From the NCBI RefSeq assembly GCF_022818495.1, contig NZ_CP089291.1, positions 4,047,501-4,111,500 on the forward strand: DNA of 64,000 bases. Direction: 5' to 3'. The notes under the pieces were generated by a model, which saw only the letters and a list, made by a program, of their open reading frames with translations, was not told where the DNA came from and searched no databases. The translations under genes were made by a program, and so were the position numbers. Shown here one piece after another: positions 20,812 through 39,735 of this stretch. The stretch is from Fodinisporobacter ferrooxydans. Lineage in GTDB: Bacteria > Bacillota > Bacilli > Tumebacillales > MYW30-H2. Within the stretch, counting starts at the first letter, position 1. The number at the start of each line of letters is the position of its first letter.

Positions 20812-21120
20812 AAGAAAGGCCCCACATCCGCAATAGGGACGTGGGACCGTGGTGCCACCCTAATTAGCCTGTCAGTCATTTGGCTCACTTTAAGGGTACG
20901 GATCATAGTATACACCACGTCGATACCCGTCTCTTGGTAACGGAGAGACAATCCCGGCTTTGCCTACTGCCATGCTGCACAGGTTCAGCAAAGCAACTCA
21001 AAAGTCCATTCGGCATTCGATGTGTATCGGCTTGCACCACCCGCCGACTCTCTGAAACAACATCTATGAATGCGTGCTACTCTTCATCATCGTTTTTTCC
21101 GTTTCACACGTTTAATCTTG
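20812..21120 (-). promoter_or_regulatory. T-box riboswitch, predicted tRNA-Trp specific
   Basis: Reading the minus strand, TTAGGGTGGCACCACGG (20862-20846) is the conserved T-box that pairs with the tRNA acceptor end. It is followed by the terminator hairpin GGTCCCAC...GTGGGGCC and a T run (to about 20812). Stem I lies upstream, with GGTGGTGCAAGCCGATAC and then CCGAATGGACTTTTGAG. By analogy with other T-boxes the specifier after GAA is UGG (21008-21006), the Trp codon. The T-box itself is certain; the specifier call is by pattern. Confidence 0.85.
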
Positions 21121-31794: not shown

Positions 31795-31804
31795 GGGGAT
31801 TCTT

Positions 31805-32116
31805 ATGGGATTTTTTGATCGATTGTTCAAAAAAGAAAGCCAGAAAGCAATGCACGAAATGACAGTTCCGGAAGGGATGGAAAGTGTTCTTCTCAAAGGA
31901 ATCGGCATGCATTGAATGCATGCGTGTAAGCCCTCGGTCGAGGGTGCGCTAAAGAAAATATCCGGCGTCTATCGCTTTCAGGTCGAGATTCCGCCAAAGG
32001 ATCATGCCTGGGTTATCTTTGACCCACAAAAAGCAACCATTGATGATATGAAATCAGCAATTGAAAAAGCCGGATACCACGTTCAGGATGTGATACCCGA
32101 TTATCGGCCTGAATGA
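31805..32116 (+). CDS. HMA-domain metal-binding protein with in-frame UGA (candidate selenoprotein)
   Basis: GAGGGG precedes ATG 31805. The frame reads MGFFDRLFKKESQKAMHEMT, VLLKGIGMH, UGA (codon 37, 31913-31915), MHACKPSVEGALKKISGV, then FDPQKATIDDMKSAIEKAGY to TGA 32114. The UGA stands where HMA/CopZ proteins have the first Cys of GMHCxxC; the second is C41. Both sides belong to one HMA protein (103 residues). A GG-loop hairpin at 31931-31944 is compatible with a bacterial SECIS. Alternatives: a nonsense mutation, or restart at ATG 31916. UxxxC spacing differs by one from the usual CxxC. Confidence 0.65.
31931..31944 (+). promoter_or_regulatory. Candidate SECIS hairpin in the HMA gene
   Basis: CCCTC-GGTC-GAGGG begins 15 bases after the UGA; the loop begins 20 bases after it. 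The loop GGUC is the same core as in the E. coli fdhF SECIS apical loop, and the distance lies within the range accepted for bacterial SECIS elements (about 16-37 bases). It is a short stem, so this is suggestive only. Confidence 0.5.
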
Positions 32117-32129
32117 TAAGGAGGAATAT

Positions 32130-33035
32130 GTGGTGCCTAATGTTCGTTCGCAAAGTGATCCAAGAATCCGCCTTCTTTGGGTTCTCTCGGCAGCGACCTT
32201 CCTGATCTTCTTTCAGGCTTTCATGGTCGCTCCACTCATCCCACATCTTGCGAGTTTTTTCAATGTTTCGGTTGGAACCATCGGGTTGATCGTTCCAGCT
32301 TACTTACTCCCATATGGAGCGACAACACTCGTTTACGGTCCACTTTCCGATCGTTTGGGGCGACGTACTATTATTCTCGCATCGTTTGCCGGATTCATTT
32401 TATTTACCGGGTTCACGGCACTCGCCGATTCTGCAGCTGCTTTATTCTGGCTGCGTCTGATTACGGGACTTGTTGCCAGTGGTGTAGTGCCGATTGCGTT
32501 GGCTCTTGTCGGCGACCACTTTGACTACAAAGAACGTGGGCGTGCGCTCGGGTGGCTGTTCGGAGCAATGGCTGGCGGGATGGCGTTTGGTTCAACACTG
32601 GGAGCCGTTCTTGAACCTTTCCTTACATGGCAAGGGCTCTTTCTCGGTGTCGCTGTATTGTCGATCCTGGTTTTCATCACATTGATACCGTTCCAAACAA
32701 TGTTGGATCAACGTGTGACGGTCAACGTTCCATCCACCCTTCGTCAGGTAGGAATGGGGCTGCTTATGTTACTGAAATCCAAACGTGGTGCTCGAACTTA
32801 TACGTACGTTTTGTTTAACGGCATATTTCATTCGGGGGTCTTTACATGGCTCGGGTACTATTTTGCTAAGCGGTATGGTTTAGGTGATGTGGGCGTCGGA
32901 CTTGCACTACTCGGTTATGGAATTCCCGGTTTTCTTTTCGGACCAGTCATTGGCCGCTTGGCCGATCGTATGGGAAGAAGTCATTTCATTCCAATCGGCT
33001 TCGTGATCGCAGGACTTTCAACCGCCAAAAAATAA
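32130..33035 (+). CDS. MFS transporter, 3'-shortened
   Basis: 301 residues of a drug-efflux-like MFS protein with signature GPLSDRLGRRTIIL in loop 2-3, RLITGLVASGVVPIALALVG, and a second-half copy GRLADRMGRSHFIP. It stops right after helix 9 (IAGLSTAKK), roughly 90-100 residues short of the usual 12-helix length. A strong hairpin at 33035-33066 follows at once. It is probably a truncated, non-functional last gene of the metal operon. AAGGAGG lies 5 bases before GTG 32130. Confidence 0.75.
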   Translation: MVPNVRSQSDPRIRLLWVLSAATFLIFFQAFMVAPLIPHLASFFNVSVGTIGLIVPAYLLPYGATTLVYGPLSDRLGRRTIILASFAGFILFTGFTALADSAAALFWLRLITGLVASGVVPIALALVGDHFDYKERGRALGWLFGAMAGGMAFGSTLGAVLEPFLTWQGLFLGVAVLSILVFITLIPFQTMLDQRVTVNVPSTLRQVGMGLLMLLKSKRGARTYTYVLFNGIFHSGVFTWLGYYFAKRYGLGDVGVGLALLGYGIPGFLFGPVIGRLADRMGRSHFIPIGFVIAGLSTAKK

Positions 33036-33066
33036 GGACTATGTAGACATAATTCTACATAGTCCT
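33035..33066. terminator. Hairpin after the shortened MFS gene
   Basis: AGGACTATGTAG / CTACATAGTCCT, a perfect 12-bp stem with an 8-base loop that starts inside the MFS stop codon. There is no strong T run, so it may be a repeat end or the site of the truncation rather than a simple terminator. Confidence 0.5.
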
Positions 33067-33123
33067 CCATTCATTTCGCCTAAAACCTAAAATTAAACGT
33101 TTCATATAATTTTTCTTGACATA

Positions 33124-33414
33124 TTAGCAACAACCCGTATTTCCTAACCAAACCAATCCAGCCCCAGTTCTTGTTTTCTGGTAATCAAGCACTAAAGATT
33201 CTGTAAAACTTACAACATTTTCAGCAATTGCTATCCGGACTCCATTGATTATATTCACAACATCCGTTTTATTGGGCTCTGCCAGAGCCACTCCCAGTTT
33301 AGGCTTCCCTCAACTGATGCCTGATGCATAGATGCGGATCACTTTTCCTTCATTCGCCTTTATAACACCTTGCAAATACTCTTTTGCCGCATCGGTAATA
33401 TTCAATATGCACAC
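33124..33414 (-). CDS. HesB/IscA-like protein with in-frame UGA (candidate selenoprotein)
   Basis: The minus frame from GTG 33414 (AAGGA 5 bases upstream) reads NITDAAKEYLQGVIKANEGK, VIRIYASGIS, UGA (codon 35, 33312-33310), GKPKLGVALAEP, then INGVRIAIAENVVSFTESLV and GLVWLGNTGCC to TAA 33124. HesB-like proteins have a conserved Cys in GxGCGGPxLGLALDEP at exactly this site, and HesB-like selenoproteins with Sec there are known. The rest of the 96-residue frame is undamaged. A GG-loop hairpin follows the UGA. It lies downstream of the second arsA and may be the last ars-operon gene; it may handle iron-sulfur or metalloid chemistry. Confidence 0.7.
33275..33289 (-). promoter_or_regulatory. Candidate SECIS hairpin in the HesB-like gene
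   Basis: On the message strand GGCTCT-GGC-AGAGCC forms a perfect 6-bp stem whose loop begins with GG, 26 bases after the UGA. This fits the usual distance and loop rule for bacterial SECIS elements. Confidence 0.5.
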
Positions 33415-33486
33415 CTCGTTCCTTAAAAATTAAGAAGTGTCGTCTAAAAATTAAATCAGACGCTTTTGCTCACTTTTTTTATAAGA

Positions 33487-34398
33487 TCATTTCCGGATCA
33501 ACAAATGCGAACACTCCAGCAATGCTTTTGCACCGATGATTTCATCCTCTTGATATTCAGCAACGGCTATCGCTTGCTGCGGATGATTCTGTTTCAACGC
33601 ATGATAATGTTGCAATTGAATGTTCCGTCGTTTTCCGAATAATGGGCTGGTTTGAGCTTCTTCCGGCAATACCTGATTGACGATGACCGCCTGTGTCGGA
33701 ATCTCCGCTGCTGCCAAATCCCCCATCGCCCGCTCCATCTCGGTAATCGGCGTAGTTTCCGCTAATGTGACAAACATCATGCTGGTTTTTACCGGATCTT
33801 GGAGCGTGCGAATCGCCTGTTGCATGCGAGCCATTTGCGCCTGATCAAGCGCTGCCGTTTCCGCAGTAAACGAGTCTTTGTTTTTCAGTTCCGTTTCGTA
33901 ATCGAACGACAATGTCAGCAAACGGATCGTATGACCGGTCGGAGCCGTATCGAACACAACCACCTCATACGAATCATCGAGCAGAAAATCAAGGAATTCC
34001 TGAAATACCGCTACTTCCTCCGTACAGGGAGAATTGAGTTCTTCATTGACACGTTCCCATGTATCGCCAGTGCCAAACTGCTCTTGCACCTGTTTCAATA
34101 CTCGCTCTTTATACTGCCAAAATGCCTGTTTTGGATCAATCCGCGCCAACCATAAATTGCTTTGTTGAAAACGTATAGGTTTCGCTGTTACTTCCACACC
34201 CAACACATTTCCTGTATGGGCTGCCGGATCAGTAGTTATCAGCAATGTACGCCGTCCTTGCTCTGTAGCGTATACGGCGATGGCACTGGACATGGTGGTT
34301 TTGCCTACGCCGCCTTTTCCAGCCAAAAAAATTCGTTTCGTCCGGCCAGCTTCAGGAAGGATTAAATCTTGAGGAAATTTTTCAAATGACAAAGACAT
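33487..34398 (-). CDS. arsA: ArsA-type anion-pump ATPase, second copy
   Basis: About 303 residues from ATG 34398, which has GGGAGGG about 9 bases upstream and overlaps the end of the first arsA by 17 bases. Deviant Walker A GKGGVGKTT, switch II DTAPTGHT and the metalloid-ligand segment NSPCTEE are present. ArsA energises ArsB for arsenite export. Together with the preceding gene it provides the two halves that are fused in E. coli ArsA. The frame is open further upstream to 34434, but without a ribosome site. Confidence 0.9.
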   Translation of the reverse strand: MSLSFEKFPQDLILPEAGRTKRIFLAGKGGVGKTTMSSAIAVYATEQGRRTLLITTDPAAHTGNVLGVEVTAKPIRFQQSNLWLARIDPKQAFWQYKERVLKQVQEQFGTGDTWERVNEELNSPCTEEVAVFQEFLDFLLDDSYEVVVFDTAPTGHTIRLLTLSFDYETELKNKDSFTAETAALDQAQMARMQQAIRTLQDPVKTSMMFVTLAETTPITEMERAMGDLAAAEIPTQAVIVNQVLPEEAQTSPLFGKRRNIQLQHYHALKQNHPQQAIAVAEYQEDEIIGAKALLECSHLLIRK

Positions 34399-35266
34399 CT
34401 TGTAAATCCCTCCCAACGGTACGAAGCATCTCAATCCCTTTCACTTCATCCGCATACAAAGGCATAAGTCCAACCGGACCATGAAACATTTGCTTTGCTT
34501 GTTCGATATGCGGCAGTTGCTTTTGCCATCTGCGGGCAGAATACGGATGATTGCGCTCTTCTTCCGGAATGACGCCATTGATAATCGCAACTTGATGCTT
34601 GATGTTCATATTTTGCAATTCTGAAGAAGAGCGGATCATTTCTTGAATTGGCATGGCAGATGCTTGTGTCACGAATACAAATGTTGTAAGCGTCCGATCT
34701 GTTAGCAGAAGGATGGCAGTATCATACTGTTCTTTCGAGGATGCCAATGCATCAACTCCGCCGATGCATGTCTGACCGCTGCCTTTCGCACTTTCCTCAA
34801 TATGCGCACTCCAACTTCCCGGCAGTTCCAGTAAACGAAGCGTATGGCCCGTCGGCGCCGTATCAAAAATCACATACTCATACTGCGGTTTATGCATACA
34901 AGCGATAAATTGATCAAATGTAGCGATTTCCTCGGTACAAGGGCCACTCATTTTTTCCTCGATGGAACGCAACATATCTTCCGGAAAAACATCCCGCAAT
35001 GGCGAAAGTGCCCGCTCCTTGTATTGACGCAACGATTCTTGCGGGCTGATTTCTTGCACGTGTAAATGTTCAACGCCATCGACCGCCCGTACATCCAATC
35101 CAAAGTCTTGCCCAAATACGTCGCCCAGGTTCGATGCCGGATCGGTCGTAACCAGCAAAGTCTCAAATCCACGGCTCGCCAGCAGCACTGCAGTTGCTGA
35201 GGAAAGAGAGGTTTTCCCAACCCCTCCCTTTCCGGAAAAGAAAATAAACTTTGTCATGTTATTCAC
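34382..35266 (-). CDS. arsA: ArsA-type anion-pump ATPase, first copy
   Basis: 294 residues. GKGGVGKTS near the N-terminus, DTAPTGHTLRLL, and GPCTEEIATF with the conserved Cys. It belongs to the half-size ArsA group. It overlaps the arsD stop by four bases and the second arsA start, so the three genes are translationally coupled. ArsD delivers As(III) to ArsA, consistent with this order. Confidence 0.92.
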   Translation of the reverse strand: MNNMTKFIFFSGKGGVGKTSLSSATAVLLASRGFETLLVTTDPASNLGDVFGQDFGLDVRAVDGVEHLHVQEISPQESLRQYKERALSPLRDVFPEDMLRSIEEKMSGPCTEEIATFDQFIACMHKPQYEYVIFDTAPTGHTLRLLELPGSWSAHIEESAKGSGQTCIGGVDALASSKEQYDTAILLLTDRTLTTFVFVTQASAMPIQEMIRSSSELQNMNIKHQVAIINGVIPEEERNHPYSARRWQKQLPHIEQAKQMFHGPVGLMPLYADEVKGIEMLRTVGRDLQDVFVI

Positions 35267-35559
35267 TCCTCGGGAAGCTCAAAATCACGGAGTTCCGGAT
35301 ATTTGCCGGCCAGCCGCACTTCCCCTTCGACAACAAGGATCGGCAACGCTTTGGGGCCGTCTTTTAGCAATGTTTGGTATACTTTCGGATTTGCACTGAA
35401 TGCCTGCGGATTTCGGCTTAACATATAACGTTGCACCGAGTGTCCTTGGTTTTTTAACGTTTCCACCAATTCTCCCACACGGATCAGTTCCGGATCTGGA
35501 GAGGGCCCGCAAATCCCGGTGGAGCAACACATTTCCGGATCAAAAATTTCAATTTCCAT
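35263..35559 (-). CDS. arsD: Arsenic metallochaperone ArsD
   Basis: 98 residues from ATG 35559 (GGGAGG upstream). ArsD signature: IEIFDPEMCCSTGICGPSPD, with C11, C12 and C17 as the As(III) site, and LLKDGPKALPILVVEGEV in the thioredoxin-like core. It transfers arsenite to ArsA and can act as a weak repressor. Coupled to the first arsA by a 4-base overlap. Confidence 0.93.
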   Translation of the reverse strand: MEIEIFDPEMCCSTGICGPSPDPELIRVGELVETLKNQGHSVQRYMLSRNPQAFSANPKVYQTLLKDGPKALPILVVEGEVRLAGKYPELRDFELPEE

Positions 35560-35657
35560 GAAGATCTGCCTCCCTGTATTGACATGCAAGCTCTGATGGT
35601 CAAACCTATTTGCGATTCAATCTGTGACTGGCAAACGAAATATTTCTCACGAAAGAA

Positions 35658-35933
35658 TTAACAGCAGCCATCCGGCCCACAGCAACATGCCCCATCGCCA
35701 GAAGCTAAAACGTTCAATTCCACTTGTTTCTCCTTGATCAATTCCTCTGCCATTGCATCCACTTGCAATGCCGCGGATAATTTTTGTGTACGGACGATTG
35801 AAAAAATTTGTTGAAACTCCTCTTCTGTCACACCATTCTGTTTCGCCTCGCGAATGCTGGTTTCCAAAGATGCCGGATGTTGCAGCGCAAGTGCAACGGC
35901 AACTTTCAACATGTGTGTGGTTGTATTCTCCAT
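35658..35933 (-). CDS. Unknown ars-operon protein with Cys-rich tail (91 aa)
   Basis: A soluble, helical protein (KVAVALALQHPASLETSIRE, GVTEEEFQQIFSIVRTQKLS) with a C-terminal tail ACCCGPDGCC: five Cys in the last eight residues. The helical part distantly recalls the CMD/AhpD-type fold without its CxxC. The tail could bind As(III) or deliver it to ArsD. It lies between arsC and arsD, with no recognised family. Confidence 0.75.
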   Translation of the reverse strand: MENTTTHMLKVAVALALQHPASLETSIREAKQNGVTEEEFQQIFSIVRTQKLSAALQVDAMAEELIKEKQVELNVLASGDGACCCGPDGCC

Positions 35934-36047
35934 ATTGAACCTTCCTCTCCCATATATTTTGTTATCACACGCCTTGATTGAACGATAGCACCGTAGTCAT
36001 GCATATAGTTCTTTTCGAAAATCGTTCTTTTCGAAAACCGGATCCCG

Positions 36048-36479
36048 TTACATGTCCTTTTGTTCCTCAGCAAATTGCTTGATGCGGTCTTCGATTTGAT
36101 CACGCACCCGTTGAAAGACCGCCCACTTTTCTTCGTCCGTTCCCGTCGCTTTTGCCGGATCGTCAAATCCCCAATGGAAACGGGTCACATGCGGCGGTGT
36201 AATCGGGCATCTGTCATTCGCATCGCCGCACAGTGTGATCACATACTTGGCTTGATCTAACAATTCCGGATCAATGATTTCGGATGTTTGCTTGGAAATG
36301 TCAATGCCTTTCTCTGCCATTGCTTTCACGGCATTCGGATTTAATCCGTGTGCCTCAATACCTGCGCTGTATACATGAAACTGATCTCCCAGAAATTTTT
36401 TTCCAAATCCTTCTGCCATCTGGCTGCGGCACGAATTTCCCGTACATAGAAAGTAGATAATCGGTTTGTTCGTTGTCAT
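36048..36479 (-). CDS. arsC: Arsenate reductase (thioredoxin-coupled)
   Basis: 143 residues of the low-molecular-weight phosphatase-like ArsC class. Catalytic P-loop LCTGNSCRS (C12), and redox pair C84 and C91 in [12 protein letters not shown]. It reduces arsenate to arsenite with thioredoxin. Full length. It follows arsB and precedes the Cys-tail protein. Confidence 0.95.
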
Positions 36480-36591
36480 ATTTTAGCCCCCACTGTTTCA
36501 TTCAGAATTTAATTGAATACTCGAGATAAGATCTAAAGGTTGACTGCGTTACTTTAAAAGCAGAACATGGATCACTCGTGTGCACACTGAG

Positions 36592-37893
36592 TTAATACAA
36601 TACGTGGAACCATACATACAGACCCGTCAACGTAATCAACAAAGTGGGAACCGTCAGCAGGATCCCTGTTTTAAAATAATATCCCCACGTAATTTTGACA
36701 TCTTTTTTTGCCAAAACGTGTAGCCATAACAGAGTCGCCAAGGAACCGATGGGAGTGATCTTCGGCCCCAAATCGCTGCCGATCACATTCGCATATACCA
36801 AGGCATTTTGAATCGCCCCTGTCATCAGGGTTCCTTTGATTGCCAATGCGTCAATCATGACGGTCGGCATATTGTTCATGACGGATGACAAAATGGCAGC
36901 CAGAAATCCCATCCCGACCGTTGCGGCAAATTGTCCCTGCTGGCTCATCCATGTGATCAGTTGGCCGAGAAGATCGGTTAAACCGACATTTTTCAACCCA
37001 TAGACGACCACATACATGCCGATGGAAAAGATCACGACTGTCCATGGAGCTTCTTTTACCACTCGTCGGGTGTGAATTGCGGGGCTTTTGCGGGCAGCGA
37101 GCAGAAATACGACGGCAGCAAGACCGGCGATGATCGACACCGGGATATGCAAGAATTGGCTGATCAAATATCCAACGAGAAGCACCAAGAGTATCAGCCA
37201 AGATAAGCGAAACAATCGGATATCCCGAATGGCTTCACGCGGTTGTTTGAGCTGCTTCGGATCAAATTTTTCCGGAATCGAGCGGCGATAATACAGATAC
37301 AAAACAAGCAAACTCGCACCTAATGAGAATAGATCCGGTACGATCATATGCTTGGCATATTCCACAAACCCGATGCCGAAATAATCGGCAGATACAATGT
37401 TCACGAGGTTGCTGACGATCAACGGCAACGACGTCGTATCCGCAATGAAGCCGCTGGCCATGACGAACGGCAAGATCCGCTTGTCGTCGAATTTTAGCGC
37501 TCGTACTTGTGCCAACACGATCGGCGTAATGATGAGCGCTGCGCCGTCATTCGCAAAAAATGCGGCTACGACTGTTCCAAGCAACACGATATACACAAAC
37601 ATCAGGTGGCCGCTTCCCCGTGCAAGGCGTGCCATATGTAAGGCAGACCATTCAAAAAAACCGGCTTCATCCAGGATGATAGAGATCAGAATAATCGCTA
37701 CAAATGCCAGCGTCGCATCCCAGACGATTTTTGTAACGGTCCACACATCACCGATGTGTACCACTCCAACCAACAGTGCGAGGATCGCGCCAATCGTTGC
37801 CGGCCAGCCAATGGACAAACCGCGCGGTTGCCAAATCACTACGATCAATGTCAAGATAAATACGAGAATCGCCAATAATGTAAGGCTTGTCAT
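36592..37893 (-). CDS. arsB: Arsenite efflux pump ArsB
   Basis: 433 residues, about 12 membrane helices, of the ArsB/NhaD (ion transporter) superfamily. Typical segments: [39 protein letters not shown] and [17 protein letters not shown]. It exports As(III), alone or with ArsA as ATP-driven subunit. It starts 20 bases after the arsR stop. Confidence 0.93.
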
Positions 37894-37913
37894 TGTTGTA
37901 GAATCACCTCCTT

Positions 37914-38237
37914 TCAGTCACAGTTGACCAACAGTCCACGAGCTTTCAGTGATTCCAATTCTTCCGACAAATCCGGCAGCGATTGCAACGCTGTACCGAT
38001 GGAAGCGAGCTTTTCCTGATTGAGCGAGTAGAAGACCCACTGTCCCCGCCGCATTTCTCGAACAAAGCCGGAAACCTTTAAACGGTTTAGATGTTTGGAG
38101 ATGGCAGGCTGTGAAATGCCGAAGATGGGAACCAACTCGCAAACGCAAAAATCACGCAATTTCAAAAGCGCAACAATCTTCAAACGAGTAGGATCCGCAA
38201 GAGCTTTTAGATCATTTGCCAATGTTTCAAATACCAT
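37914..38237 (-). CDS. arsR: ArsR-family arsenic-responsive repressor
   Basis: 107 residues from ATG 38237 (AAGGAGGGG upstream). Winged helix with the metal site DFCVCEL (C31, C33) in the alpha-3 helix, the classical As(III) sensor of plasmid R773-type ArsR, and [14 protein letters not shown] as recognition helix. First gene of the operon; it should repress the A/T-rich promoter at 38240-38300 and release on arsenite. Confidence 0.93.
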
Positions 38238-38475
38238 AACGCCCCTCCTTGTTACTATATTATATTTATATATGTATATAACCATATCATTATTTTATTG
38301 TCAAATAAAAACAAGCATCAACTCAACAATCGCAATCGTTACATTTATTTCGCCGGGAACCTCCTCCATACCAAAAGTTGGAGGCATATGAAAACAATCG
38401 CAGGATTTGATTCCGTGCAACAAAATTGCATGTCAATTCGTCAAATTGTATATAGCATAAAAAAGGCGTGATGAT

Positions 38476-39735
38476 ATGAGATTTTTGCGAAGAATCGGAA
38501 TTGGCGTTGCCGCAATTGTATTGGCTTTTTTTGCTTCCGGTTGCGGGTCACAAAGATCAGAAAACTCCTCAACTCTCGAATGGAACGGCGTTCGTGCAAC
38601 GATTCGGCCGTTATCAAAAGGCGTGAACCGAAATGTCTTGTGGTCCCCCTCCGGCAATCGTTTTTGTTACTTCAGTCCGGAAACACAGTCATTTCAGATC
38701 GGAACTGTGAAACCTTTTTCCATTGAATCGGTTCGATTGCCCAATCAACGGCATATTGTCGCATTGACGGATGAGTCGGCCATTGTGGCCTCAAACGAGG
38801 ATGACCGGAATTGGATCTATCCCTTGACAAAAACGGGGATCGGCAAACCGACGGCATGGAGAGCGGCAACCGATCCATGGCAGGAATGGGCAGATACTCA
38901 ACAGGGTCCGGGGGGAATACTAGTCGGAGGCTATTCACCCAAATCACTGGAACTTGAATTGGATAACGGGGAGCATATACCTCTAAATGGCGAAGATGCG
39001 ATTCTATCCATGGATCGAAAATATGGAGCTGTGGTGTCCTCCCATCGTCTAAGACGACCGGTGCATTCAAGCGGTGACACCATGATGCCGGCCGAACACC
39101 AGCCATTTGATCCTTTGAAACCGATCGTCGTGTGGAATTTTTCCGCAACAGGCGGTCCGAGGAAACAAACGGTCTTACAGCTTCCCAAAATTGACCTGCC
39201 GAATCTTGCCGGACAGCGAAAAGAAGTTCCTGGCGGCATCGGCATCTCCTTCTCTCCCGACGACAAGCATGTTTTCGTCAGTGTCAATACGGGCGGCAAT
39301 GGGTCAAAATTAACCGGCGAATCGTTCCTTTTTGATGCATCTACCGGGCATTTGATGAGCAAAATCCCGTATGGAAATGGAATGCAATGGTCGGCGGATG
39401 GGACAAGTATCTGGGTCAATGCAGATCAACCGCAAGGTACAGGCGAGGACAAATTGGTGACACTTGATGGCCGAATGGTCAATACTTGGAAAGATGTTTA
39501 CGGCCGTCCGGCATGGGTTTTGAAAAATGCTACATTTTTGATGTCGAATGCCAATAGGCAGCTTGGATTCACCGGTTGGGATCATTCCTTCCATCCGTTT
39601 CCGAATCTTCAGGCATTCGGTTATGCCAACGATCCTGTTGTCCCTTCACCAAATGGCCATTCCGGTTTGCTATTTTTGTATAACAATACCCCACAAATCG
39701 ATTACGGGGCTGTTTTGGTGGAAATGATTCAGTAA
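38476..39735 (+). CDS. Lipoprotein with beta-propeller-like body
   Basis: 419 residues. Lipobox at FFASGCGSQ (Cys24), so lipid-anchored outside the membrane. The body is beta-rich with repeated propeller-like blade ends (NVLWSPSGNRFCYFSP, GISFSPDDKHVFVSVNT, GMQWSADGTSIWVNADQ), as in WD40/TolB-like domains. Function unknown. Monocistronic. Confidence 0.7.
   Translation: MRFLRRIGIGVAAIVLAFFASGCGSQRSENSSTLEWNGVRATIRPLSKGVNRNVLWSPSGNRFCYFSPETQSFQIGTVKPFSIESVRLPNQRHIVALTDESAIVASNEDDRNWIYPLTKTGIGKPTAWRAATDPWQEWADTQQGPGGILVGGYSPKSLELELDNGEHIPLNGEDAILSMDRKYGAVVSSHRLRRPVHSSGDTMMPAEHQPFDPLKPIVVWNFSATGGPRKQTVLQLPKIDLPNLAGQRKEVPGGIGISFSPDDKHVFVSVNTGGNGSKLTGESFLFDASTGHLMSKIPYGNGMQWSADGTSIWVNADQPQGTGEDKLVTLDGRMVNTWKDVYGRPAWVLKNATFLMSNANRQLGFTGWDHSFHPFPNLQAFGYANDPVVPSPNGHSGLLFLYNNTPQIDYGAVLVEMIQ

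Follow-up and report, generated by a model that had tools for sequence, protein, structure and literature searches.

HesB-like proteins with selenocysteine (Sec) in place of a conserved Cys are an established group of selenoproteins. Table 1 of PMC1794560 contains 11 Sec members, and an excerpt of PMC2933860 gives the function of the HesB-like selenoprotein as 'Unknown (iron/sulfur cluster assembly?)'. HesB proteins are also linked to arsenic resistance: excerpts of PMC4562236 and PMC5481582 place a HesB-like orf7 in the ars1 operon of Bacillus sp. CDB3, and an excerpt of PMC8779447 reports ars-linked HesB in Exiguobacterium. The word selenoprotein has 0 occurrences in these three papers. For metal(loid) systems, excerpts of PMC13188914 name SaoC (with a Cys-Cys-COOH end), an arsenite methyltransferase and an arsenate reductase as selenoproteins, and they do not include a HesB-like protein among the selenoproteins tied to metal(loid) resistance. 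Excerpts of PMC7996765 and PMC12013277 draw no link between a HesB selenoprotein and an ars operon. An ars-operon HesB selenoprotein was not found in the open-access literature searched, as far as its excerpts go; others, such as the authors of HMM libraries, may well already know of one. Each part is already in print; the combination of a Sec HesB with an ars operon looks new.

Herein, we analysed a stretch of 64,000 nucleotides from Fodinisporobacter ferrooxydans (contig NZ_CP089291.1), referred to as the window, in which a hesB gene with an in-frame TGA lies at the end of an ars operon. A first-pass annotation had called it a candidate selenoprotein gene and had stated that HesB-like selenoproteins with Sec at this Cys are established; the latter is borne out by PMC1794560 and PMC13188914. 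As in the HesB-like selenoproteins of TIGR01911 and the excerpts of these two papers, the fold is IscA-type, Sec stands at the corresponding Cys and a candidate SECIS element follows just downstream. Unlike them, the window gene is in an ars operon, its product ends in Cys-Cys, and it scores 41.6 bits with TIGR01911 against a cut-off of 66.35. The motif also differs, being U-G-K-P and not the UxGP of the excerpted review (PMC13188914). Like CDB3 orf7 in the excerpted papers (PMC4562236, PMC5481582), the gene belongs to the HesB family and is distal in its operon; unlike its S-U-G-K-P, the ars-linked Cys forms mostly read G-C-C-G-P (the CDB3 orf7 sequence itself is not among them). With the A-type carriers IscA, SufA and ErpA it shares the fold and the position of the first active Cys, but has Sec for Cys and no C-x-C tail. 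As in SaoC, the arsenite methyltransferase and the arsenate reductase of PMC13188914 (in excerpt), which are other families, Sec would act in or be linked to metal(loid) handling. We consider it highly probable that hesB is a working selenoprotein gene, its UGA being decoded as Sec, and at the same time a member of the ars operon.

The hesB frame and the ars operon

The hesB gene occupies 33124..33405 on the minus strand, with a TTG start, a TAA stop and 93 codons plus stop. The first-pass annotation had given a 96-codon frame at 33124-33414; the coordinates were exact, and the strand, which it had left unstated, is minus. Its description of an otherwise clean frame ending in GCC also held, as there is a single internal TGA (33312-33310) before the TAA, and the protein ends in NTGCC. 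This TGA is codon 35 counted from GTG and residue 32 from TTG. Read with the TGA as U, the product is (V-C-I-)L-N-I-T-D-A-A-K-E-Y...GISUGKPKLGVALAEP...NTGCC, and its two C-terminal Cys codons lie at 33127..33132 (minus strand). The GTG at 33414 was replaced as start by the TTG at 33405 in the same frame, which is preferred because a Shine-Dalgarno-like GAGGTG (33412..33417, minus strand, from sequence) stands 6 nt before it and because the ortholog in genome G003 opens with the same TTG-AAT-ATT-ACC; the GTG falls inside GAGGTG.

If the UGA were a plain nonsense mutation, the ars-operon hesB would be a pseudogene. Against this, the frame is free of further stops and can be aligned from end to end with the G003 ortholog, at 47% identity. 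By codon position, 60/93, 67/93 and 34/93 bases are identical at positions 1, 2 and 3, so that position 3 is the most diverged, a pattern which we counted as support for selection at the protein level.

Upstream of hesB lies a complete ars operon in the order arsR-B-C-CMD-D-A-A-hesB, with hesB last and all genes on the minus strand. It starts with an arsR-type repressor gene (37914..38285; NF033788, 95.9 bits, cut-off 55), followed by the arsenite efflux pump gene arsB (36592..37893; TIGR00935, 721.3 bits, cut-off 415) and arsC, encoding an arsenate reductase of the thioredoxin type (36048..36479; TIGR02691, 230.2 bits, cut-off 174.3). The next gene (35658..35933) encodes a CMD/AhpD-like protein of 91 aa (PF02627, 25.3 bits, gathering 23) without an NCBIfam match at E<=1e-5; its end, CCCGPDGCC, strikes us as reminiscent of the vicinal Cys pairs of ArsD. 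The arsenite metallochaperone gene arsD (35263..35589; NF033727, 114.6 bits, cut-off 90) and two genes for ArsA ATPase halves, arsA1 (34382..35266) and arsA2 (33487..34434), complete the cluster, the last being directly upstream of hesB.

The hesB gene begins 81 nt after arsA2 on the same strand, and a scan for terminators and promoters made no call on the minus strand in this gap, which holds a weaker hairpin (z -1.67). The strongest terminator call of the scan lies just after hesB, at 33034..33067 (minus strand), with 14 pairs, the T-run tail ATTTTTTGGC and a fold z of -6.78; the same hairpin was also called on the plus strand with a poorer tail, CCATTCATTT. Five weaker minus-strand calls are inside arsB and arsA1. 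A promoter-like site at 38321-38292, just upstream of arsR, weighs little because six such sites occur in the region, below the shuffled mean of 10.0. Being co-directional, free of a terminator call in the gap and ars-linked elsewhere, hesB appears to belong to the ars operon.

The frame of an MFS transporter on the plus strand (32130-33035) is short, covering 1-282 of the 347-position MFS_1 profile. It ends in STAKK at the 33034-33067 hairpin, as if the event that joined it to the ars operon had cost it its 3' end. A search for plasmid DNA nearly identical to 31800-39735 yielded nothing but stretches resembling arsB on two Paenibacillus plasmids, which cover 11% of the query.

Family assignment, relatives and Sec machinery

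The window HesB barely passed the Pfam model Fe-S_biosyn (PF01521), with 26.4 bits against a gathering score of 26.3. A search of HesB-like selenoprotein families, which the first-pass annotation had suggested, gave a match to TIGR01911 (HesB_rel_seleno) at E 1.4e-10 with U scored as C, though below the cut-off as given above. NF038090, the model for IscA/HesB family proteins with Sec, gave 35.3 bits, below the cut-off of 85. Neither model names the hesB branch, because 7/7 Sec relatives or paralogs (L058, L059, L147, L153, L143, L070, and L071) were also below both cut-offs. All ten rows of one alignment (A1) matched NF038090 at E<=1e-3, and the window HesB is therefore a distant relative of that model. 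The branch gave weak profile matches to IscA/SufA/ErpA, and a profile from ten relatives searched against the PDB found AQ_1857, HI1723 and IscA-type chains, with five distinct sequences at E<=0.01. An AlphaFold2 model of two sequences had a mean pLDDT of 73.2 and a pTM of 0.64, with the last three residues <50. With this model, Foldseek ranked IscA 1r94 best (E 1.8e-05), then SufA 2d2a (1.3e-04), the IscA/SufA range extending to 1.5e-04. The predicted structure does not resolve the tail with its Cys-Cys end.

A search with the single protein matched 30/61 genomes, the window's own included, and a related-locus search with it confirmed 1/79 stretches (L027). The profile search, which also picks up SufA-type paralogs, matched, within the class, 126/398 genomes at E<=1e-8 and, within the order, 14/14 genomes at E<=1e-5. 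Flanked regions were fetched from part of the matched genomes (19 + 40, hand-chosen, mostly the best matches). Before alignment, rows under a score limit of 60 were dropped (L069, which is partial, L075, and L076); L070, L071 and L072, being paralogs or canonical forms, were retained despite the limit, and L074, from the same list, scored 60.1.

In the 62 aligned rows, the site column holds U in 25 (window included), C in 32 and E in 2, and 3 are SufA outgroup rows. The TGA of the window sits at the active-Cys column, as the first-pass annotation had read from the family motif. Internal TGA codons occur in 26 rows, and 25 of them, again with the window, share this one column; 24 other rows with the same UGA column speak against a chance nonsense mutation in hesB. 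Sister pseudogenes with further lesions, which had been named as a result that would count against a selenoprotein, did not turn up, as the aligned Sec relatives are open-framed and agree in the UGA column. The one row with its TGA elsewhere is L139 (6432-6734, G368), an ars-linked Cys form with CC at the site and TGA at a column that is Arg in close relatives; SelA was searched in its genome without a match. The TGA of L139 has the look of an ordinary nonsense mutation, so that such lesions do exist in the family. By these features the window hesB is unlike the L139 type of case.

The residue after the site changes together with it. Sec rows read U-G in 24/25 and U-D in 1/25, and Cys rows read C-C in 31/32 and C-G in 1/32, indicating that the exchange from U-G to C-C is coupled, the second residue going with the Sec or Cys state. 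Protein ends were CC in 10, C in 12 and other in 2 of the 24 Sec rows besides the window, which itself ends in CC, and CC in 11, C in 18 and other in 3 of the 32 Cys rows. Two HesB relatives (L163 in G365 and L169 in G147) have Glu-Phe at the site, replacing U-G or C-C.

In a tree rooted on SufA with the site columns excluded, the Sec rows are the earliest to branch off, the Cys rows being nested, with two state changes. The tree rests on 93 columns and carries a 'few columns' warning; 26/55 inner branches are starred and 13 are open, and L163, L169, L158b and L065 were dropped beforehand. The SufA-type rows form a separate starred branch (97/98). The end branch of the window protein is long (0.88), a point in favour of a pseudogene. 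The tree favours, but cannot settle, that Sec is the older state in the hesB branch, with one main conversion from Sec to Cys-Cys. As the Cys rows are approximately one clade, Sec and Cys rows are not independent and Fisher p-values overstate the evidence; the contrasts in a CTG codon, the hairpin and its covariation (below) therefore weigh more.

The F. ferrooxydans genome, a single contig of 4,856,687 bases, has the full Sec machinery. SelA scored 598.7 bits against a cut-off of 267.9 and SelB 352.5 against 242.25, while tRNA-Sec reached 60.5 bits with a gathering score of 47. There are two SelD genes, both with an in-frame TGA of their own, which scored 412.9 and 364.9 bits against a cut-off of 125. 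An absence of Sec machinery, the other finding that had been named as adverse to a selenoprotein, is thus not the case, and a nonsense mutation is again the poorer account. In 14 control genomes, SelA exceeded the cut-off in 1, SelB in 2, SelD in 2 and tRNA-Sec in 5; with pass counts of 1 and 5, SelA is the most telling test and the tRNA-Sec model the laxest. SelA was searched in 44 genomes, leaving out the Sec-row genomes G043, G060, G010, G014 and G009. It exceeded the cut-off in 16/16 tested genomes with a Sec row, in 4/26 represented in the set by Cys rows but by no Sec row (G329, G321, G350, and G196) and in 0/2 with Glu-Phe at the site (G365 and G147). Genome G090, which contributes L156 (Sec) as well as L155 (Cys), was counted among the Sec genomes. 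Since four Cys-form genomes have SelA, a genome with the machinery need not have the Sec form. According to the proposed mechanism, SelA, SelB, SelD and tRNA-Sec of the same genome would read the UGA at 33312-33310 as selenocysteine.

The candidate SECIS hairpin

A candidate bSECIS hairpin, GGCUCU-GGC-AGAGCC, lies at 33275..33289 on the minus strand. The stem-loop with its GG loop 26 bases past the UGA, as the first-pass annotation had described it, was found at just this spacing. The limits in the excerpt of PMC13188914 are a loop of 3-9 nt with G in the first two positions, a stem of 4-16 bp, a spacing of 16-37 nt and an energy of at most -7.5 kcal/mol. The geometry of the window hairpin agrees with them (a GGC loop on a stem of 6 bp, at a spacing of 26). 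Its energy is -7.4 kcal/mol for the bare 15 nt, just short of -7.5, and -8.4 for a 39-nt fold.

Taken alone, the window hairpin was unexceptional against dinucleotide shuffles (z -0.43 for 39 nt and +0.57 for 58 nt), and synonymous-codon randomisation gave p = 0.037. Since the single sequence was not significant in shuffles, the comparative test was used, and the strong evidence tying hairpin and UGA together is comparative. A hairpin 25-26 nt past the UGA is common to the Sec forms; it is present in most Sec rows and, as such, missing from the Cys rows. The inner five pairs are complete in 20/25 Sec rows versus 0/32 Cys rows, and rows with Leu at the hairpin encode it by CTG in 24/24 Sec cases versus 1/24 Cys cases. 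Bases 29-33 from the U of the UGA read TGGAT in 17 of the 25 Sec rows, TGGAA in 4, TGGAG in 2 and TGGCA in 2. Synonymous randomisation with loops of 3-9 gave p<0.05 for 17/25 Sec rows versus 2/32 Cys rows. With loops of up to 12 nt allowed, 24/25 Sec rows have some hairpin, of -1.7 to -11.5 kcal/mol. By the criteria used L156 has none, the best one in L170 is elsewhere (spacing 31), and those of L073, L072 and L151 are weak.

The 24 distinct Sec rows were further compared with 500 shuffles. The covariation score was 0.196 versus 0.111 shuffled (0/500 reached it), and paired cells amounted to 88.1% versus 83.4% shuffled (1/500 as high), while 'further pair types' were not above the shuffles (70/500). 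When the hairpin was slid, paired cells fell to 22.6-47.0% from the 88.1% in register; a slide of +3 exceeded the true register in pairs changed on both sides (4 vs 3) and in pair types (9 vs 8). In the proposed mechanism, this hairpin within the coding sequence, with its GG loop 26 nt downstream of the UGA, would be the decoding signal.

The hairpin common to the window and the Sec rows is a further point against a plain nonsense mutation. We rejected the pseudogene on the UGA column, the SECIS and the co-occurrence with SelA, and regard it as very improbable for hesB. The UGA at 33312-33310 is very probably read as selenocysteine. The first-pass call of a candidate selenoprotein is supported by the machinery, the UGA column, the shared covarying hairpin and the SelA co-occurrence; the ars setting and the paired change from U-G to C-C had escaped it.

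The selD genes of the same genome were viewed by the same rules. One has a GGC loop 17 nt past its UGA; in the second, the loop of the best hairpin is CGUGC, 32 nt past the UGA. The sole Rfam match of the window at the gathering score was a T-box leader (RF00230) at 20832-21099 on the minus strand, with 118.6 bits.

Possible roles, ars linkage and further UGA genes

The product would be a protein of 93 aa with the IscA/HesB fold, which has Sec at the active Cys and ends in Cys-Cys. Vicinal thiols are well known to bind As(III). From the ars context, the U-G/C-C exchange and the Cys-Cys end, we infer that Sec and the two terminal Cys act jointly as one soft-metal site, which may bind either As(III) itself or an Fe-S cluster to which As(III) has access. 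HesB might then hand As(III) to ArsA/ArsB or buffer it, and relatives, mostly without Sec machinery, would keep the site by changing U-G to a vicinal C-C. A role as As(III) ligand is conceivable, its likelihood falling somewhat short of even. With more reserve, we put forward that the ars-operon HesB proteins form an arsenite-handling family, in which Sec and the C-terminal Cys-Cys make a three-ligand As(III) site, lineages losing Sec decoding rebuilt the site with vicinal Cys-Cys, and selenium itself is a metalloid ligand.

A selenoprotein could also be an A-type Fe-S carrier or repair factor that shields Fe-S enzymes from arsenite without being an As(III) ligand. The predicted IscA/SufA fold (with the Foldseek match to 1r94), the Pfam match and the weak IscA/SufA/ErpA profile matches point this way. 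The A-type carriers IscA, SufA and ErpA end in C-x-C ligands. The window HesB ends in G-C-C-stop without C-x-C, and the genome already has a separate Cys paralog of the SufA type (L018), both of which argue against it. We regard Fe-S carriage or protection as rather unlikely. A redox role, for instance as selenol/thiol donor to the thioredoxin-type ArsC with reduction by an operon-sharing thioredoxin reductase, would suit the ArsC of this operon and the clusters of two Cytobacillus plasmids and one Sporosarcina plasmid, in which trxB shares the ars cluster. However, the predicted HesB fold is IscA-like and not thioredoxin-like, and no trxB is present among the identified window genes from 33124 to 38285, making thiol/selenol redox chemistry improbable.

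The ars linkage of relatives was assessed by phmmer comparison with the ars proteins of the window alone. It was found for 6/25 Sec rows, namely the window and L058, L059, L147, L149 and L153 (ars-cluster Sec forms beyond the window being in genomes G003, G021, G352, G103 and G254), and for 30/32 Cys rows, a count that includes L158b, judged by an ArsA match 1.8 kb before. The fetched stretches of 19/25 Sec rows contain no ars gene, and a link to arsenic is therefore not a general trait of Sec forms. Several stretches, L058, L060 and L072 among them, end at contig ends, where an absence of ars genes is weak evidence.

Plasmids matched in 16 records. In five of them, from Cytobacillus, no gene is listed under the match (the PLSDB gene table is incomplete); the two of these examined were both Sec forms. 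They are ars-cluster hesB genes (L172, NZ_CP097350.1 270480-270755; L173, NZ_CP107028.1 55996-56271), which annotation probably missed because of the UGA. The Sec form of the Cytobacillus firmus plasmid follows genes for an arsenic transporter, arsC, arsD, arsA, trxB and a phosphatase, and that of the C. pseudoceanisediminis plasmid follows listed arsC, arsD and trxB genes. In plasmid ars operons of Priestia and Sporosarcina, Cys forms are annotated as 'adhesin' and 'iron-sulfur cluster biosynthesis family protein'. The Sec reading would tie Sec decoding to an ars operon in Bacilli, offer a natural set of Sec and Cys-Cys forms for asking why Sec is kept, and point to genes that annotation tends to miss, such as the unlisted Cytobacillus forms. 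Arsenic and selenium are antagonists, and if Sec does bind arsenite, this antagonism gains a testable case at the protein level.

Two further HesB-like paralogs of the F. ferrooxydans genome have a UGA at the same column (L016/L070, G000:C1:3439004-3439270; L019/L071, G000:C1:362865-363092), and each carries a UGACUC...GAGUCA hairpin.

The other UGA gene, which was the first candidate of the first-pass annotation, lies 1.4 kb away as it had stated. It encodes an HMA-domain (CopZ-like) protein on the plus strand (31805-32116), with the TGA at 31913-31915 within GIGMHUMHAC, and is likely a second selenoprotein gene. It adjoins the genes for a heavy-metal P-type ATPase and a CsoR-family repressor. 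A hairpin with a GGUC loop lies 20 nt past the UGA, and the frame ends in TGA, directly followed by TAA.
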